Shown piece by piece: positions 48,094 to 54,295 of a stretch of DNA of 64,000 bases. The stretch lies in contig JAJRXR010000052.1 of the NCBI GenBank assembly GCA_024276195.1, positions 19,282-83,281 on the forward strand. Direction: 5' to 3'. Below the pieces are notes generated by a model that did not search any database, was not told where the DNA came from, and was given only the letters and a program-made list of their open reading frames with translations. Position 1 is the stretch's first letter. The number at the start of each line of letters is the position of its first letter. The position numbers and the translations under genes are program-made. This stretch comes from Planctomycetota bacterium. GTDB taxonomy: Bacteria > Planctomycetota > Phycisphaerae > Phycisphaerales > UBA1924.

Positions 48094-49750
48094 AACCCTC
48101 ATCGTCGGCGCGATCGAGCGCGCCCGCGCCAGCGGGTGCGACATCGTCGTCACGCCCGAACTCGCGCTGAGCGGGTACCCGCCCAAGGATCTGCTGTACC
48201 GCAGCGCGTTCATCGAGGCGTGCGCCAGCACGGCCAAGCGGATCGGGGAGAACTGCACCGACGGGATCACGCTGGTCCTGGGCACGCCCCTGCCGACGGA
48301 TCCGACCGACCCGGGCTCGGGCGCCGCCAACAGTCTGGTGGTGTACCGCGACGGGGAGCTGGTTGACTACTACGACAAACGCCTGCTCCCGACCTACGAC
48401 GTCTTCGACGAGGACCGGTACTTCACGCCCGGCGCCCGGGCCGTCGTCTTCGAGGCGGGGGGCAATCGCATCGGGCTGGCGATCTGCGAGGACCTGTGGA
48501 AGGGCGAGGACGCGGGCTTTGCGCAGCGATACCGCACCAGCGAAGACCCCGTCGCGGCGCTGGAGACCCTGGGCGTGGAAGTGCTCATCAGCCCGTCGGC
48601 AAGCCCATTCGTTCTCGGCAAGGGCCTGCGCCATCATGAGCTGGTCGCCGGGTGCGCCAAGCGCCTGGGCGCGCACGTGCTCAGCGTCAACCAGCTCGGG
48701 GGGAATGACGACCTCGTCTTTGACGGGCACACCCTCGTGTACGCCCCCGACGGGGCCTTGCAGAGCGCCGGCGGGCTGTTCGGGCAAGAGCTGCGAGATG
48801 GCCTGCACATATGCGATATCGGCGCGAGCCGGTCGCACACCGACGACCCGGCGGTCGCCCTCGACGACGAAGAACTCCTGTACCGGGCGCTGGTGCTCGG
48901 GGTCAGGGACTATCTGCGCAAGACCGGGTTTGAGCGTGCGCTCATTGCGCTCTCGGGCGGGATCGACTCGGCATTGACGGCCGTTATCGCGTGCGCCGCG
49001 ATCGGGAGCGAGCGGGTCACGGGCGTGAGCCTGCCGGGGATGTACTCGTCGGATCACTCGATGGTGGACGCGACAGAGCTGGCGGGCGCGCTGGGCGTGC
49101 GCTGCCTGAGCGTGCCGATCCGCGAGGGGGAGAACGCGCTGGCGGGGATGCTCAACCCGGCGCTGGTCGAGCTGGGGCAGGCGCCACTCGGCGAGGAGCT
49201 GCCGGACGTGGCCGAGGAGAACCTGCAGAGCCGGGTGCGCGGGGTGGTGATGATGGCGCTGTCCAACCGGACGGGCGCGATCCTGCTGACGACGGGCAAC
49301 AAGAGCGAGCTGGCGGTGGGATACTGCACGCTGTACGGCGACATGAACGGCGGGCTGGCCGTGCTCAGCGACGTGCCCAAGACACTGGTCTACACGCTCT
49401 CGCGCTGGATCAACGGGCAGCACGAGCGCCTCGGCTTCGAGAGCCCGCCGATCCCGCAGCGGACGATCGACAAACCCCCCAGCGCCGAGCTGCGCCCGGA
49501 CCAGAAAGATTCGGACTCGCTGCCCGAGTATCACATCCTCGACGAGATCATCGAGCGCTGCGTCGAGCAGCGCCAGAGCACGAAACGGATCATCGACGAG
49601 ACCGGCATCGACCCCGCGATCATCGAACGCATCACGGGATTGATCCGGCGCAACGAGTACAAACGCCAGCAGCTTGCGATCGGGATCAAGGTGACGGGGG
49701 TCGCGTTCGGGGCGGGGAGACGGATGCCGATTGCGCAGGGGTGGGGATGA
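48038..49750 (+). CDS. nadE: Glutamine-dependent NAD+ synthetase
   Basis: A 570-aa two-domain enzyme that amidates nicotinate adenine dinucleotide to NAD+. The nitrilase-type glutaminase has its triad in PELALSGYPPKDLL (Glu), YDKRLLPTYDVFDEDRYF (Lys) and IGLAICEDLW (Cys). The synthetase domain has the ATP P-loop LSGGIDSALT and NRTGAILLTTGNKSELAVGY. Length is normal. The start lies within the upstream gene and follows a TATCAT box by 6 nt. A 10-bp hairpin follows 72 nt after the stop. Confidence 0.95.
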   Translation: MRIALAPLNPTVGALKDNETLIVGAIERARASGCDIVVTPELALSGYPPKDLLYRSAFIEACASTAKRIGENCTDGITLVLGTPLPTDPTDPGSGAANSLVVYRDGELVDYYDKRLLPTYDVFDEDRYFTPGARAVVFEAGGNRIGLAICEDLWKGEDAGFAQRYRTSEDPVAALETLGVEVLISPSASPFVLGKGLRHHELVAGCAKRLGAHVLSVNQLGGNDDLVFDGHTLVYAPDGALQSAGGLFGQELRDGLHICDIGASRSHTDDPAVALDDEELLYRALVLGVRDYLRKTGFERALIALSGGIDSALTAVIACAAIGSERVTGVSLPGMYSSDHSMVDATELAGALGVRCLSVPIREGENALAGMLNPALVELGQAPLGEELPDVAEENLQSRVRGVVMMALSNRTGAILLTTGNKSELAVGYCTLYGDMNGGLAVLSDVPKTLVYTLSRWINGQHERLGFESPPIPQRTIDKPPSAELRPDQKDSDSLPEYHILDEIIERCVEQRQSTKRIIDETGIDPAIIERITGLIRRNEYKRQQLAIGIKVTGVAFGAGRRMPIAQGWG

Positions 49751-49768
49751 GGGGAGGGGGATGATTCA

Positions 49769-49798
49769 CCGCAGAGGGCCGCGGAGGGCCGCAGAGGG
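49769..49798 (+). repeat. Three tandem 10-bp units CCGC(A/G)GAGGG
   Basis: CCGCAGAGGG, CCGCGGAGGG and CCGCAGAGGG follow directly after one another, 18 nt past the nadE stop. They mark the left edge of the repeat-rich island. Confidence 0.8.
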
Positions 49799-49821
49799 GG
49801 GAGAGGGGCGGATTCGCGTGC

Positions 49822-49845
49822 CACTGACCCGTCTTCGGGTCAGTG
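49822..49845. terminator. Perfect 10-bp hairpin after nadE
   Basis: CACTGACCCG and CGGGTCAGTG pair perfectly around TCTT. Only TTG follows, so termination would rely on stem strength. It lies 16 nt before the first copy of the double-hairpin repeat. Confidence 0.6.
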
Positions 49846-49861
49846 TTGATACAAAGGGTGG

Positions 49862-49935
49862 CGTGCAGACGGCGGTAGCCTTCTGCACGGTTTGCGAAGG
49901 TGATTGCGGGATCGTGGGGAAGGCGAGGCGATGTT
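49862..49935 (+). repeat. Double-hairpin repeat, copy 1 (left hairpin intact, right degenerate)
   Basis: CGTGCAGA (49862-49869) pairs with TCTGCACG (49882-49889). The linker is recognisable, but the right stem has decayed (CGTGGGGA without a matching TCTCCACG). Confidence 0.75.
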
Positions 49936-50003
49936 TCGGCAGCACCCGGTGGTCATGTCAACGGGGCGGGCCGGGTCCGCGAGGCTATATCAGAGGGCCG
50001 GGA

Positions 50004-50618
50004 ATGGCGGCGAAGTCGTTGTTTGCCACAGCCAGGGGTGTAATATTGCATTGCAGCACGTCAAAAATCTTTGCTCCAAATAGAAAAAATGTCGCAAGAA
50101 GACCGTTGGCGTTTTCTGTCATCTTGCTAGCAGCCCTCAATCTGGCTGTTCCCTCTTGTCGGCTCAGTCAGTATTCACCACACGGCTACACTCGTGAGTT
50201 TGCGTTGATGACGAGCGATGAACTGGCAATGCGATTTCAGACATCCAGAGACCCGGCGATAATCGATATGGCTACTCTGGCGCTTAGTGATAGGCTGCTC
50301 AGTTGGGCCAGAGGGCGAGAACAAGCAGATTGGGAACAGTTTACGCCCGATCAAGCGCTTGATCTCTACGCAACCGCTGGCGTGCGTGCCCGGCAAGTTC
50401 TACTAGAGAACAAAGCGGATGCCGTTAAAGCAATGAGTAGTTACATGACAGTCTGGCTGATGCTAGAACTGTCGGCCAGCGAGACGGACCCGCAACTCAC
50501 GCTGGAAATTCTTGAAGAGTGGGAAGGCCCCGACAGTTGGGGGCCATTTTATCGGGATCTGTTCGAGCAGAGGCGAGCTGCGATTCAGGCCCATGTCACC
50601 GAGTTGGAAAGCGACTAG
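50004..50618 (+). CDS. Hypothetical secreted or lipoprotein-like protein of the low-GC island
   Basis: A 204-aa protein. A basic segment is followed by a hydrophobic helix ending in a possible lipobox (LAFSVILLAALNLAVPSC), then a helical domain of about 150 residues (MTSDELAMRFQTSRDPAIID, PQLTLEILEEWEGPDSWGPF). The signal begins about 32 residues in, so the true start may be later and non-ATG. Base composition is clearly less GC-rich than flanking core genes, suggesting acquisition. No family recognised. Confidence 0.55.
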   Translation: MAAKSLFATARGVILHCSTSKIFAPNRKNVARRPLAFSVILLAALNLAVPSCRLSQYSPHGYTREFALMTSDELAMRFQTSRDPAIIDMATLALSDRLLSWARGREQADWEQFTPDQALDLYATAGVRARQVLLENKADAVKAMSSYMTVWLMLELSASETDPQLTLEILEEWEGPDSWGPFYRDLFEQRRAAIQAHVTELESD

Positions 50619-50684
50619 GTCGTGTCTGACGGCTCATTTGTTCGGCGCATGAGCGGGGTTGCGCTGTGTTGGGTTGGCCGGTGG

Positions 50685-50764
50685 CGTGCAGACGGCGCCA
50701 GCCTTCTGCACGGGTTGCGGAGGCAAGAGTGGATCGTGGAGAAGGCGAAGACGGCGTCTCCACG
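50685..50764 (+). repeat. Double-hairpin repeat, copy 2 (complete)
   Basis: Left stem CGTGCAGA/TCTGCACG and right stem CGTGGAGA/TCTCCACG are both perfect 8-bp, separated by a GC-rich linker (GGTTGCGGAGGCAAGAG). It fills most of the gap before merR. Confidence 0.9.
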
Positions 50765-50830
50765 CCACCCGGCTCCGGCGCCTGAGCCCATTCCGATTTT
50801 CTTGAAACATTGAACTACGGTGCAAGCTGG

Positions 50831-50836
50831 TACACT
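50831..50836 (+). promoter_or_regulatory. -10 box of a probable leaderless promoter (merR-like)
   Basis: TACACT, then CCCCT (5 nt), then GTG 50842. No ribosome-binding site is visible. Confidence 0.45.
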
Positions 50837-50841
50837 CCCCT

Positions 50842-51252
50842 GTGATCCAGCACCAGACCATCGGCCAGCTTGCGCGGGACGCGGGGGTGCCCACGTCCAC
50901 GATCCGGTATTACGAACGGCGCGGCTTGCTCGCCCCCTCCGGGCGGAGCTGCGGCAACTACCGCGTCTACGGCCCGGACGAGGCCGAGCGGCTTGCGTTC
51001 ATCCGGGCGGCGCAGACCGCCGGGTTCACGCTGGCGGATATCGAGGCGCTGCTGCGCCTCCAGGACGAGCGGACGCCGGCGTGCGCCGAGGTTCAGCAGC
51101 TCCTGTCCGCCCGCCTGGGCGAGGCGGATGAGCAGCTGCGCCAGTTGCGAGCGCTGCGCAAGACGCTCGGGCGCTGGATGGACGCCTGCAAGGAGGCCGA
51201 GCGTGGTGGGCGCTGCGCTGTGATCGAGGGGTTGACGGGAAAAACAGCGTAA
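50842..51252 (+). CDS. MerR-family regulator with mercury-type cysteine triad
   Basis: A 136-aa protein. The winged helix-turn-helix (TIGQLARDAGVPTSTIRYYE, RRGLLAP, NYRVYGPDEAERLAFI) leads to a dimerisation helix and a metal loop. The three cysteines are spaced C-x34-C-x8-C (ACAEV..., DACKEAERGGRC). These are the intervals between C82, C117 and C126 of the Tn501 mercury sensor MerR, so a trigonal thiophilic metal site (Hg, or possibly Cd/Pb) is likely. The downstream gene has a MerR-type promoter and a Cys-repeat product. No merA or merT is in the window. Confidence 0.88.
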   Translation: MIQHQTIGQLARDAGVPTSTIRYYERRGLLAPSGRSCGNYRVYGPDEAERLAFIRAAQTAGFTLADIEALLRLQDERTPACAEVQQLLSARLGEADEQLRQLRALRKTLGRWMDACKEAERGGRCAVIEGLTGKTA

Positions 51253-51277
51253 AAACCGGGAAGCCACGGAAAGGGGC

Positions 51278-51309
51278 TTGACCTTGCACCGCAGTTCAGA
51301 GCCGATACT
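51278..51309 (+). promoter_or_regulatory. Long-spacer promoter of MerR type with imperfect dyad
   Basis: TTGACC (51278-51283) and GATACT (51304-51309) are 20 bp apart. Elongated 19-20 bp spacers are the hallmark of MerR-activated promoters, and TTGACC is a common -35 there. A degenerate dyad (C..TG.AC.GC.GT.CA..G) is centred at 51291/51292, within the spacer. It reads into the Cys-repeat gene, which starts 66 nt downstream. Confidence 0.65.
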
Positions 51310-51375
51310 GCCTGTGTGAATGCTGCGGGCGTCCGAGGGCACTTGCGGATCAGGATTCTCTCTAAGGAGCCGACC

Positions 51376-51744
51376 ATGCTGAAGAAGATCATGTTGATCG
51401 CCGCCGTTCCGGCGTCGTTGAGTGTTGTCGCCCTCGCGATGAACAGCGCGAGCAAGCGCGCCGACCGGGCGGACTGCCCGGGGCGGATCACCTGCCCGCT
51501 CACGGGCGAGCTGGTGTGCGAGGACGAGTGCCCGGTTGACGCTGCGGGCGATCAGGCGGCGCAGCCCGTCGCGGCCCTGCCCACCGACCCCGCCCGCGCC
51601 GATTGCCCGGGGCTCATCACCTGCCCGCTCACGGGCGAGCTGATCTGCGAGGACGAGTGCGAGGCGAACACGGCGGCAAAGGACGAAGCAAAGCCCGAGG
51701 CTGCGCTCCCCGCCGTGCCGAGTTGCTGTTCGAGCGATGGCTGA
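51376..51744 (+). CDS. Secreted protein with two four-cysteine repeats, probable metal-binding target of the MerR regulator
   Basis: A 122-aa protein with an N-terminal signal/anchor helix (IMLIAAVPASLSVVALAM). Two copies of DCPG-ITCPLTGEL-CEDEC (residues 33-52 and 76-95) have identical spacing C-x5-C-x7-C-x3-C, joined by a Pro/Ala-rich linker. The chain ends SCCSSDG. Ten thiols in 122 residues and the preceding MerR gene suggest envelope capture of a thiophilic metal. AAGGAG lies 7 nt before ATG 51376. I recognise CPLTGE-type motifs from metal-island hypothetical proteins, but no named family. Confidence 0.75.
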   Translation: MLKKIMLIAAVPASLSVVALAMNSASKRADRADCPGRITCPLTGELVCEDECPVDAAGDQAAQPVAALPTDPARADCPGLITCPLTGELICEDECEANTAAKDEAKPEAALPAVPSCCSSDG

Positions 51745-51778
51745 GCACCTGAGACTCAGTCAACTCATCAAAGGGTGG

Positions 51779-51858
51779 CGTGCAGACGGCGATAGCCTTC
51801 TGCACGGTTTGCGGAGGCAAGAGTGTGATCGTGGAGAAGCCGAAGCGGCGTCTCCACG
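51779..51858 (+). repeat. Double-hairpin repeat, copy 3 (complete)
   Basis: Both 8-bp stems are perfect (CGTGCAGA/TCTGCACG and CGTGGAGA/TCTCCACG). The right hairpin is extended inside by GCCG/CGGC around AAG. It follows the stop of the Cys-repeat gene by 34 nt. Confidence 0.9.
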
Positions 51859-51880
51859 GCACCCGGCTCGGCGCCCGCTA

Positions 51881-52267
51881 TCAATCTTCCCGCCCCGCAA
51901 TCCGGGATGTATCGGCTCCACACTCAGGGCAACGGCCTGAATTTAGGCCAACTAAGTGGTAGCCGCACGCAGCGCATCTACCCGGCCCGGAGAGCTGATG
52001 TCGACGCCACATCAGCGCAACAAATAAATCGCAAACAATGCCGATCACTACATACTGGATCGCCCCAAGTAGGATGGTTCCGATCCCCTGAAATCCAAGA
52101 ACATTAGCGAGCAACGACGATGGCAACGACACAATGAAAACCGCTCCTGCTCCCCACCCATGCCCCGCACTGCCGGGCGGCCCCAGAAGCAAGAACAAAG
52201 CACTGGCAACAAACACGATCGGTGCGATGGCCCATGCATGCACGTTTGGAGGCCGAGTCTCACTCAT
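51881..52267 (-). CDS. Small membrane protein with C-terminal CxxCGY..CPECG zinc ribbon
   Basis: A 128-aa protein with three to four hydrophobic segments (AIAPIVFVASALFLLLGPPG, AVFIVSLPSSLLANVLGF, AIQYVVIGIVCDLFVALMW). It ends in a zinc ribbon CAACGYHLVGLNSGRCPECG. This C-terminal ribbon is a recurring feature of planctomycete small membrane proteins, and no function is established. Start ATG 52267 follows AGAGG; ATG 52297 would add 10 residues. Confidence 0.7.
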   Translation of the reverse strand: MSETRPPNVHAWAIAPIVFVASALFLLLGPPGSAGHGWGAGAVFIVSLPSSLLANVLGFQGIGTILLGAIQYVVIGIVCDLFVALMWRRHQLSGPGRCAACGYHLVGLNSGRCPECGADTSRIAGRED

Positions 52268-52355
52268 ACAGAATGCGCCTCTTCTGCTCTCGCTCTTCAT
52301 CGCTGATCGTTCGCACCAATGCCCACCGGGTAATTCTATGAATCTCTTCAGTTTC

Positions 52356-52412
52356 TGTGCGGTCTGCGCCTGCTCGCAGCGAAGCCGAAGCGGCGTCTCC
52401 ACGGCGCCGGGC
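52356..52412 (+). repeat. Double-hairpin repeat, copy 4 (right part only)
   Basis: Retains GCGCCTGCTCGCAGCGAAGC and GGCGTCTCCACGG of the family but lacks the left hairpin. It sits 6 nt past the 3' end of the first paralogous lipoprotein, with the same flank (CGCCGGGCTGTCTTCAAAA) as copy 5. Confidence 0.75.
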
Positions 52413-52417
52413 TGTCT

Positions 52418-53218
52418 TCAAAACGACCCATGCCAGAGCCAGTGGTCCGGATCGTTCAGCGCACTGCGAAGAGCAAGTGTCTCGTCAAACAACTCTGTCA
52501 TCACCAGGATAAATGACTCTGTAGAAAATCGACGCCAAAGCATGAGACCCGATTCATCAACAAGGGGGTCTCTAAACTGCCGACGGCTTTCCTCGTAGCC
52601 CAGTTCCCGTGCTCTGCTGATTGCCCCGTCGATTGAGGCGGCAACAGCGAACGGGTACCGGTCTAGCACGAAGTGCGCTACGCCGGTGTCTGGTAGAACT
52701 ATCCAGGCAAAGCTCGGGTTCGATACTCCTGGAGAACCCGTCACCTCGATATCCGAGGTCATGCCCTCTAACCGCTTGATGTTTGCTCGGATCCATCGGT
52801 ACGCGGCGACTTCATCCGGCGCCGTTGTGCGGTAGAGCTCCTGCTGCAATGGGGGTGGATCGAGCTGCCCGCTCTCTGTATCCATACGCATTGCGTAAGC
52901 AACCAGCTCTTCGCCATCAAACCCTCGAATGGCTGCATGCATGTCGATCCAGTGCACAGACCATCCGACAGTCAACACTGGCTCCGAAAGCTCAGCGTGC
53001 TGGATGAGAAACTCACGAAGCAGCTTTTTCTGCCGATCAACAAACCGCGCATCGCCGTGTTCGAGTTGAACGATGCTCTCGAGATCTCCGGCACGAAACG
53101 CCACTTGCATATCATTCGATACCGCTGAGCACGACACGAGTACGCCGAGGCTCAAGGCCAAGCTCGTCACGGCACAAATCCCGGTTCGAGTCGTCTCTCG
53201 GATCGCGATCATGGTCAT
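52418..53218 (-). CDS. Paralogous lipoprotein A of a tandem pair
   Basis: A 266-aa protein with a lipobox (LALSLGVLVSC, Cys about residue 30). It has an alpha/beta domain with motifs AIRGFDGEELVAYAMRMD, APDEVAAYRWIRANIKRLEG, ARELGYEESRRQF and the end SALNDPDHWLWHGSF. It is closely similar along its full length to the next gene upstream (same length, same ends), so a recent tandem duplication. AAGGGGGA precedes the ATG. No known family. Lower GC than core genes. Confidence 0.72.
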   Translation of the reverse strand: MTMIAIRETTRTGICAVTSLALSLGVLVSCSAVSNDMQVAFRAGDLESIVQLEHGDARFVDRQKKLLREFLIQHAELSEPVLTVGWSVHWIDMHAAIRGFDGEELVAYAMRMDTESGQLDPPPLQQELYRTTAPDEVAAYRWIRANIKRLEGMTSDIEVTGSPGVSNPSFAWIVLPDTGVAHFVLDRYPFAVAASIDGAISRARELGYEESRRQFRDPLVDESGLMLWRRFSTESFILVMTELFDETLALRSALNDPDHWLWHGSF

Positions 53219-53268
53219 CGGTCCCCCTTGCGTGGGCCTAGCGGCGCTCATTCCCGAGGCTGAACCGC

Positions 53269-53350
53269 AGTGTGCAGATGGCGCCGGCTTGCTGCACGGG
53301 TTGCGCCTGCTCGCAGCGAAGCCGAAGACGGCGTCTCCACGGCGCCGGGC
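53269..53350 (+). repeat. Double-hairpin repeat, copy 5 (variant linker)
   Basis: GTGTGCAGA-like left arm, GCTGCACGGG, then the linker form GCGCCTGCTCGCAGCGAAGC shared with copy 4, then GGCGTCTCCACGG. It lies just past the 3' end of lipoprotein B, mirroring copy 4 next to lipoprotein A. Confidence 0.8.
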
Positions 53351-53355
53351 TGTCT

Positions 53356-54156
53356 TCAAAACGACCCATGCCAGAGCCAGTGATCTGGATCGTTCAGCGC
53401 ACTGCGTAAAATGACAGCTCCGTCAAAGAGCCCCGCCGCCAAATAGGCGAATGACTCGGCAGAAAACCGGCTCCAAAGCATGATGCCGGAGTCGTGGGCG
53501 ATATCGCCTCCAAACTGCCGACGGCTTTCCTCGTAGCCCAGTTCCCGCGCCTTCCCGAGCGCCACGTCGATGGAGGCGGCGATACTGAACGGGTACTGGT
53601 TCAGCACAAAATGAGCAATACCAGAGTCCGGCAGAATTATCCAAGTGAAGCTCGGATTGGAGGTCCCTGCAAAATCTGCTACCTCAAGATCCTTGGCTCC
53701 GCCTTCAAGCCGCTTAATGTTTGCTCGGATCCATCGGTACGCGGCGACTTCGTCCGGCGCCGCTGTGCGGTAGAGCTCCTGCTGAAAAGGGGGCGCATCG
53801 ATCTGGCGGGACTCCCTATCCATACGCATTGCGTAGGCGACCAGCTCTTCGCCATCGAACCCCCGTACGGTCGCCTCCAAATAGACCCAATGCACGGTCC
53901 AGCGAACATTGAGTACGGGCTCCGTAAGCTCAGCGTGCTCGACAAGAAACTCAAGAAGCAGCTCTTTCTGCCTGTTGTTGAGCTGAATCCCGTCACGCTC
54001 TAACTCGACAAGACTCTCGGGATCGCCGGCACGAAACGCCGCTTGCATATTATTTGACACGCCCGAGCACGCCGCGAGTGCGCCGAGGCTCAAGGCCAAG
54101 CTCGTCACGGCACAAATCCCGGTTCGAGTCGTCTCTCTGATCGCGATCATGGTCAT
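53356..54156 (-). CDS. Paralogous lipoprotein B of a tandem pair
   Basis: A 266-aa lipoprotein (LALSLGALAAC). Its start MTMIAIRETTRTGICAVTSL and its end SALNDPDHWLWHGSF are identical to those of lipoprotein A. Differences are concentrated in the middle (for example residues 35-80 and the segment after IKRLEG). The duplicated unit includes the 3' repeat copy. GAAGGGGA precedes ATG 54156. Much longer in-frame upstream starts are possible but would extend into the DinB and membrane-protein genes. Function unknown. Confidence 0.72.
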   Translation of the reverse strand: MTMIAIRETTRTGICAVTSLALSLGALAACSGVSNNMQAAFRAGDPESLVELERDGIQLNNRQKELLLEFLVEHAELTEPVLNVRWTVHWVYLEATVRGFDGEELVAYAMRMDRESRQIDAPPFQQELYRTAAPDEVAAYRWIRANIKRLEGGAKDLEVADFAGTSNPSFTWIILPDSGIAHFVLNQYPFSIAASIDVALGKARELGYEESRRQFGGDIAHDSGIMLWSRFSAESFAYLAAGLFDGAVILRSALNDPDHWLWHGSF

Positions 54157-54194
54157 CGGTCCCCTTCGGGCAGCTCGGAAGCATGGCGGGCGCT

Positions 54195-54274
54195 GTGCAG
54201 ACGACGATAGCATTCTGCACGGTTTCCGAAGGCAAGAGTGTGATCGTGGAGAAGCCGAGGACGGCGTCTCCACG
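54195..54274 (+). repeat. Double-hairpin repeat, copy 6 (complete)
   Basis: Left stem GTGCAGA/TCTGCAC and right stem CGTGGAGA/TCTCCACG are intact. It lies 39 nt before lipoprotein B and near the right edge of the island. Confidence 0.88.
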
Positions 54275-54295
54275 GCACCCAGCAAGCTTCTCTGA

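Follow-up and report, generated by a model that had tools for sequence, protein, structure and literature searches.

A merR gene paired with the gene of a small Cys-repeat protein in Planctomycetota

MerP has an HMA fold and carries a CxxC motif, and the usual partners of PbrR and CadR regulators are P-type ATPases. MerT and MerC are understood, in excerpts of two papers, as importers feeding MerA (PMC8261052, PMC3466566). For the Planctomycetes, the excerpted table of a survey published on mer genes in 2021 gives 1, -, -, - (PMC8261052). According to excerpts of a further paper, mer promoters have spacers of 19 bp in the Tn501 type and of 20 bp in Gram-positive bacteria, and activation by Tn501 MerR requires a proline after the third cysteine (PMC5027573). 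The first ligand position is described as Cys in sensors of divalent and Ser in sensors of monovalent metals, with cross-talk also reported (excerpt of PMC11591864).

Here, a gene pair was analyzed in a stretch of 64,000 nucleotides (the window) from contig JAJRXR010000052.1 of a Planctomycetota bacterium, the genome of which is a 3.04-Mb assembly and 91% complete. The pair stands alone here and belongs to a widespread, probable soft-metal module under MerR control, which mostly occurs without merA.

The gene pair in the window

The gene merR is located at 50842..51252 on the plus strand and was identified from the ORF list, Pfam and PDB matches. It encodes a MerR-family metalloregulator of 136 amino acids. 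The Pfam models MerR_1 (1.5e-20), MerR-DNA-bind (4.2e-18) and MerR all score over their cut-offs, and the protein is assigned to the MerR superfamily by a predicted winged-helix domain and a predicted dimerisation/metal-binding region. By a hand count on the translation, its cysteines are spaced Cys81-x34-Cys116-x8-Cys125. The original prediction had likened these intervals to those of the mercury sensor. They are indeed shared with Tn501 MerR (5crl), but the argument is not decisive, because 5gpe, which we take to be a lead-type PbrR-like protein, has the same spacing, so that the mercury sensor is not singled out. The PDB matches of the regulator are 5gpe as the best one, CadR (6jgv) and Tn501 MerR. 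The residue following the third cysteine is alanine (CAVI) and not the proline of the CPLI type of Gram-negative MerR, and a Cys is found at the first ligand position. In NCBIfam, the regulator scores 105.1 bits with the mercury MerR model TIGR02051 (cut-off 150.85), 104.6 with the Zn-responsive (ZntR), 99.8 with the CueR and 99.1 with the CadR-PbrR model. All are below cut-off and the four lie within about 6 bits, so that they do not identify the metal.

The ORF of the small protein (51376..51744, plus strand) follows merR after 123 bases. Between the two genes, a MerR-type promoter/operator with the sequence TTGACC-20 bp-GATACT was found at 51278..51309 on the plus strand, exactly where the long-spacer promoter had been proposed. 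Its spacer of 20 bp exceeds the 17 bp above which a dyad in a promoter marks an operator of the MerR superfamily, and it contains an imperfect dyad, a putative binding site. With up to three mismatches allowed, the operator pattern occurs once in the genome itself and once in that of a sister species of the same genus (G002, which matches the L032 contig), and the reversed pattern used as a control gave 0 matches. The sequence AAGGAG (51364..51369, plus strand), read directly, precedes the start codon ATG at 51376 and is the probable Shine-Dalgarno sequence. The operator, AAGGAG and the stretch before merR are all conserved in the sister species, and the dN/dS values between the two species are 0.32 for the small gene and 0.22 for merR.

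In addition, a second operator core, TTGAACTACGGTGCAA, which was absent from the original prediction, is located before merR at 50810..50825 on the plus strand. It matches TTGNAC-N4-GTNCAA with 0 mismatches, and 0 of 50 mononucleotide shuffles, which keep base composition only, were as good. The core overlaps or abuts a possible extended -10 element, TGGTACACT (50828-50836, plus strand), which is conserved in the sister species and for which a promoter role is predicted. A second copy of the core before merR is also found in several close relatives. Since it sits just before merR, the core is probably autoregulatory.

The next long ORF 3′ of the small gene is located on the opposite strand (51881-52402), and no MerT/MerC homologue is encoded downstream within the window, which agrees with the proposal that the promoter reads only a single gene. 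The regulator is not accompanied by MerA as in a mer operon, since no MerA is encoded in the window according to the ORF list. In the genome itself (91% complete), the best MerA match (8.5e-72) is under the family cut-off and MerT gave zero matches. With neither MerT nor MerC encoded in the window, the regulator is not accompanied by a mercury transporter there either. The region is thus free of mercuric reductase and transporter genes, as first stated.

An interspersed repeat of ~93 nt with imperfect terminal inverted repeats was observed at window positions 49852-49949, 50675-50772, 51769-51866 and 54184-54281, two copies of which flank the merR pair. Its predicted fold is strong (two copies were folded, with z -5.8 and -4.5), and its full or partial matches number 41 in the genome itself, 13 in G002, 6 in G001 and 0 in G003. 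The repeat resembles an element of the MITE or REP type. In addition, there are direct repeats at a distance of 938 bp (52391-52690 and 53329-53628, 77% identical; 53076-53226 and 54014-54164, 91%), and two neighbouring minus-strand ORFs look like tandem copies. The gene at 49731-50618 may be a relative.

The small Cys-repeat protein and its distribution

The protein consists of 122 amino acids including ten cysteines, located at positions 34/40/48/52, 77/83/91/95 and 117/118. The two C-x5-C-x7-C-x3-C repeats and the terminal Cys pair are present as originally claimed, and the sequence CPGxITCPLTGELxCEDEC occurs twice. Repeat 1 (C34-x5-C40-x7-C48-x3-C52) is encoded at 51475..51531, repeat 2 (C77-x5-C83-x7-C91-x3-C95) at 51604..51660 and the terminal Cys-Cys at 51724..51729, all on the plus strand. 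On the DNA level, a direct repeat of 126 nt (51461-51586 and 51590-51715) is 75% identical. Among 34 aligned homologues, C77, C83, C91, C95 and C118 show no variation, and conservation of C117 reaches at least 90%. Each repeat is predicted to form a beta hairpin, with block means of pLDDT of 77-85 for residues 31-50 and 80-84 for residues 81-100; the model as a whole is weak (mean pLDDT 66.6, pTM 0.28). The four cysteines of such a hairpin might bind one soft metal, and a further one might be bound by the terminal pair.

The N-terminus (residues about 1-26; 51376..51453, plus strand) comprises a hydrophobic stretch resembling an export signal, which suggests export and supports the description of the protein as secreted. 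A hydrophobic stretch before the motif was also found in 60 of 63 homologues at a threshold of our own. A lipobox-like pattern is present in 8 of 63, including the doubtful case of L078.

No convincing model for the family was found in Pfam or NCBIfam, and PDB sequences gave no match to the family profile at E up to 5. An EGF domain (PF25415) reported in 10 of 34 members (best 1.8e-4) was taken as a chance match between Cys-rich sequences. Four other Pfam families, each in one or two of the 34 members, and seven NCBIfam families with one member each (best 0.014) were not accepted as family matches either. For the L027 member, reading past the TGA was considered, but no CC is in frame beyond it, so the protein was ended at this codon. 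Among the matches listed from the open-licence literature, no description of the protein family or the gene pair was found. The small protein is probably an undescribed exported protein and the centre of a new MerR/mer-like unit.

It was matched in 13 of 101 relatives, its own genome included, in 13 of the 392 genomes that made up a sample of the phylum, and at 61 loci in a collection of 84,980 species genomes. By their record titles, one of these 61 belongs to Hydrogenedentota, two to Vicinamibacteraceae and the rest to Planctomycetota or lower groups within it; the protein is thus almost confined to Planctomycetota. The two loci titled Vicinamibacteraceae (L045 and L046, WYBR01) match G071, which is placed in the order of the window organism, and probably come from a misnamed assembly. 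A tblastn search for the small protein against the plasmids of PLSDB gave no match at E 0.01.

The 61 loci were combined with L021, L027, L029 and the window to a set of 65, which are not independent of each other, as some genomes give two loci and others are near relatives (e.g., L034/L037, L033/L040/L061, L064/L065, L084/L087); L061, L090 and L092 are partial or weak members. By pattern count, 35 of these loci encode a small protein with two repeats and 28 one with a single repeat, 2 being unscored; a CC lies near the end of the protein in 60 of 65. A merR-like gene is located upstream and codirectional in 51 loci, downstream in 4 and on the other strand in 1, and is absent within 400 bp in 9, of which L047, L055 and L069 have less than 200 bp of upstream DNA. 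The pairing is therefore conserved, with merR adjoining in 55 of 65 loci (51 upstream and 4 downstream). The repeat CPG-x-[IV]-x-CP-x-TG-x3-C-x-D-x-C, the terminal CC and the adjoining merR, by which the family is recognized, are all present in the window.

Of the 65 loci, 31 have a strong MerR-type site before the small gene and a further 14 have one before merR only, in total 45. Sites were required to have a score of at least 19.5, a -35 match of at least 5/6 and at most 1 of 40 shuffles as good, with shuffles keeping non-overlapping base pairs only; spacers of 19 or 20 bp were allowed and the counted sites have 20.

In a quick tree, most of the regulators cluster together, separately from the solved references, and those of L029, L044, L050, L064 and L072 fall with Tn501 MerR, 5gpe and CadR. 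The support is 96 for the larger split and 86 for the group of five, in a tree that omits L053, L058, L062, L068 and L073, the ORFs of which were misread or cut. Because the tree contains two regulator lineages, the partnership of merR and small protein probably spans both. The regulator of the window groups with planctomycete regulators, 8 of 18 of them transporter-linked (SH-aLRT 87); on the tree, this label shows no clustering beyond that of shuffles (117/500 as low). The triad spacing x34-x8 of the window is found in 30 of the 56 regulators of the set, and Pro after the third Cys (Cys-Pro) in all five regulators of the smaller lineage and in several of the larger one.

Mercury transporters and MerA in relatives

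The transporters that accompany the pair in relatives had not been part of the original prediction. With profiles built from two Pfam-confirmed members and not Pfam itself, the first 3 kb downstream on the same strand were found to contain MerT in 22, MerC in 8 and either of them in 28 of the 65 loci, in which, unlike in the window, the regulator is thus accompanied by a transporter. With a stricter overlap rule the numbers are 22, 6 and 26. In 22 of the 65, MerT or MerC follows directly, at a distance of up to 150 bp. In the proteins scanned, this next gene codes for Trx_3-MerT-HMA in four cases, zf_CopZ-MerT-HMA in three and MerC in two.

Among the relatives, MerT co-occurs with the small protein in 9 of 13 carriers vs. 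6 of 88 other genomes (Fisher p 1.3e-6, kinship uncorrected), and in the phylum sample in 10 of 13 vs. 33 of 379 (Fisher p 2e-8, kinship uncorrected). In the latter, MerT is located within 3 kb downstream at 11 of 17 gene places; this sample overlaps the locus set by at least G068 (L029) and the window genome. MerT/MerC neighbours and MerT co-occurrence together bear out the proposed link to a thiophilic metal.

MerA over the cut-off was detected in 2 of 101 relatives, neither of them a carrier (0 of 13 carriers), and in 2 of 50 carrier genomes (L084 and L085). The carrier screen covered 50 of 59 genomes, with G000, L021, L027, L029, L087, L088, L089, L090 and L092 left out.

MerT without the small gene was found in six relatives, four of them without MerA over the cut-off. 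G002 has both the small gene and MerT, the latter being located elsewhere, behind an ORF taken by eye as a CsoR-type regulator. Likewise, L093 (G002), L095 (G011), L097 (G031) and L100 (G003) show MerT-HMA without the small protein behind a short ORF that by eye is CsoR/FrmR-like, which is a possible second regulator for merA-less MerT units in Planctomycetota. L090 and L092 encode long proteins that start with a degenerate Cys repeat, followed by HMA and thioredoxin-like domains (E 1e-9 to 1e-10; Pfam for L092, with a YHS-like stretch seen by eye). These are possible fusions of the small-protein family.

The metal, the proposed function and known systems

For the window pair, a reading that we favor slightly is that MerR responds to a thiophilic divalent metal, with Hg(II) as the likeliest one, and induces an exported trap of Cys hairpins. 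That some soft metal is involved is highly probable; for Hg(II) in particular the balance is about even. Hg(II) is favored because of the MerT/MerC neighbours: among the 30 loci in which the regulator shows the triad spacing of the window, 18 have them within 3 kb. The genome without MerT or over-cut-off MerA, the Ala in place of Pro and the undiscriminating NCBIfam scores speak against this metal. Furthermore, some neighbours argue against a mercury-only family: L075 has a copper ATPase, L079 an ATPase of the Zn/Cd type, and CusA/CzcA pumps are encoded at L057 and L084.

With the layout unchanged, inducer and cargo could instead be Cd(II), Pb(II) or Zn(II), and a sensor like PbrR, CadR or ZntR would drive an exported metal buffer. 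The best PDB matches, 5gpe (with its identical x34/x8) and CadR, fit this reading, as does the Zn-responsive NCBIfam score within a bit of the mercury model and the position of the ATPase in L079, upstream of the pair. However, the recurrent partners are MerT/MerC (28 of 65 loci) and not exporters of Cd, Pb or Zn, so this alternative seems unlikely, if the strongest of the rivals. Still less probable is that the small protein serves a system of the Cus or CopA type by buffering Cu(I)/Ag(I) in the envelope. This reading would account for the CopA-type ATPase located before merR in L075 (TIGR01511, 622 bits with a cut-off of 397), the pumps adjoining the pair in L057 and L084, an AcrB-like pump group near 12 loci, the zf_CopZ domains in several MerT fusions and the regulators of L075 and L086, which lack the first Cys. 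The window regulator itself has Cys at this position, where Ser is described for monovalent sensors (excerpt of PMC11591864), which argues against it. We consider it very improbable that the small protein is an envelope thiol redox or disulfide-exchange protein with the metal merely as inducer; thioredoxin-like domains in neighbouring fusions and the vicinal Cys pair could be read this way, but the protein has four-Cys repeats and CC in place of a CxxC active site, and its partners are metal transporters.

If the favored reading of a metal-sensing MerR with an exported trap is followed, the metal would enter the cell and be bound by MerR via Cys81, Cys116 and Cys125 at the dimer interface. MerR would occupy the 20-bp-spacer promoter at 51278-51309 as well as the second site before merR, and metal binding would distort the promoter and switch on the single gene behind it. 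The small protein would then be made and exported, and its hairpins and terminal Cys pair would bind metal on the outer side of the cytoplasmic membrane. Many relatives would probably then pass the metal to a transporter of the MerT or MerC type, the gene of which comes next in the operon; in the window organism the pair alone would form a metal-induced envelope trap. The small protein looks like a donor or buffer where a transporter adjoins and like a trap where it stands alone. Capture rather than reduction, as originally suggested, fits the window, but capture without transport is not the general design, because the pair heads a transporter operon in many relatives.

The occurrence of MerT/MerC behind merR and the Cys-repeat gene in mostly MerA-less genomes raises the question of the metal's destination. 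A tentative and rather doubtful answer is a mercury route without reduction in Planctomycetota, in which the metal would be captured by exported Cys hairpins and, where MerT/MerC (often as thioredoxin- or CopZ-like fusions) are present, handed over to them. Either the metal would end up in some sink that is not MerA, or transport by the MerT fusions would be directed outward; in stand-alone pairs like the present one, capture by itself would serve as resistance. Apart from this, the pair offers a functional handle on a protein family that has no Pfam or NCBIfam model, and as a compact regulator-promoter pair it is suited to testing in a laboratory strain.

With bacterial metallothioneins, the small protein shares the small size, the richness in cysteine and a putative role in metal binding; unlike them, it has an export-like N-terminus, cysteines arranged in repeated hairpins plus CC and no metallothionein family match. 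The regulator shares the fold and the Cys triad with PbrR/CadR regulators (5gpe, 6jgv), including the spacing in 5gpe. However, 5gpe and CadR pair together on the quick tree apart from the group of the window, and their usual partners are missing from the window. In its proposed role, the small protein resembles MerP, a small exported thiol protein that catches Hg(II) before MerT, but it has no HMA match, and HMA domains occur separately in the MerT fusions. Compared with mer operons, carriers of the pair rarely have MerA (2 of 50; 0 of 13 among relatives), and they have an extra, putatively exported protein with Cys repeats, which the excerpt of PMC3466566 does not include in its list of mer proteins. 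The transporters of the relatives are fused to thioredoxin-like or CopZ-like domains, and the window has none. Common to both are the MerR-type regulator, the palindromic operator in a long-spacer promoter and, in many relatives, adjoining MerT, MerC and HMA (MerP-like) domains.
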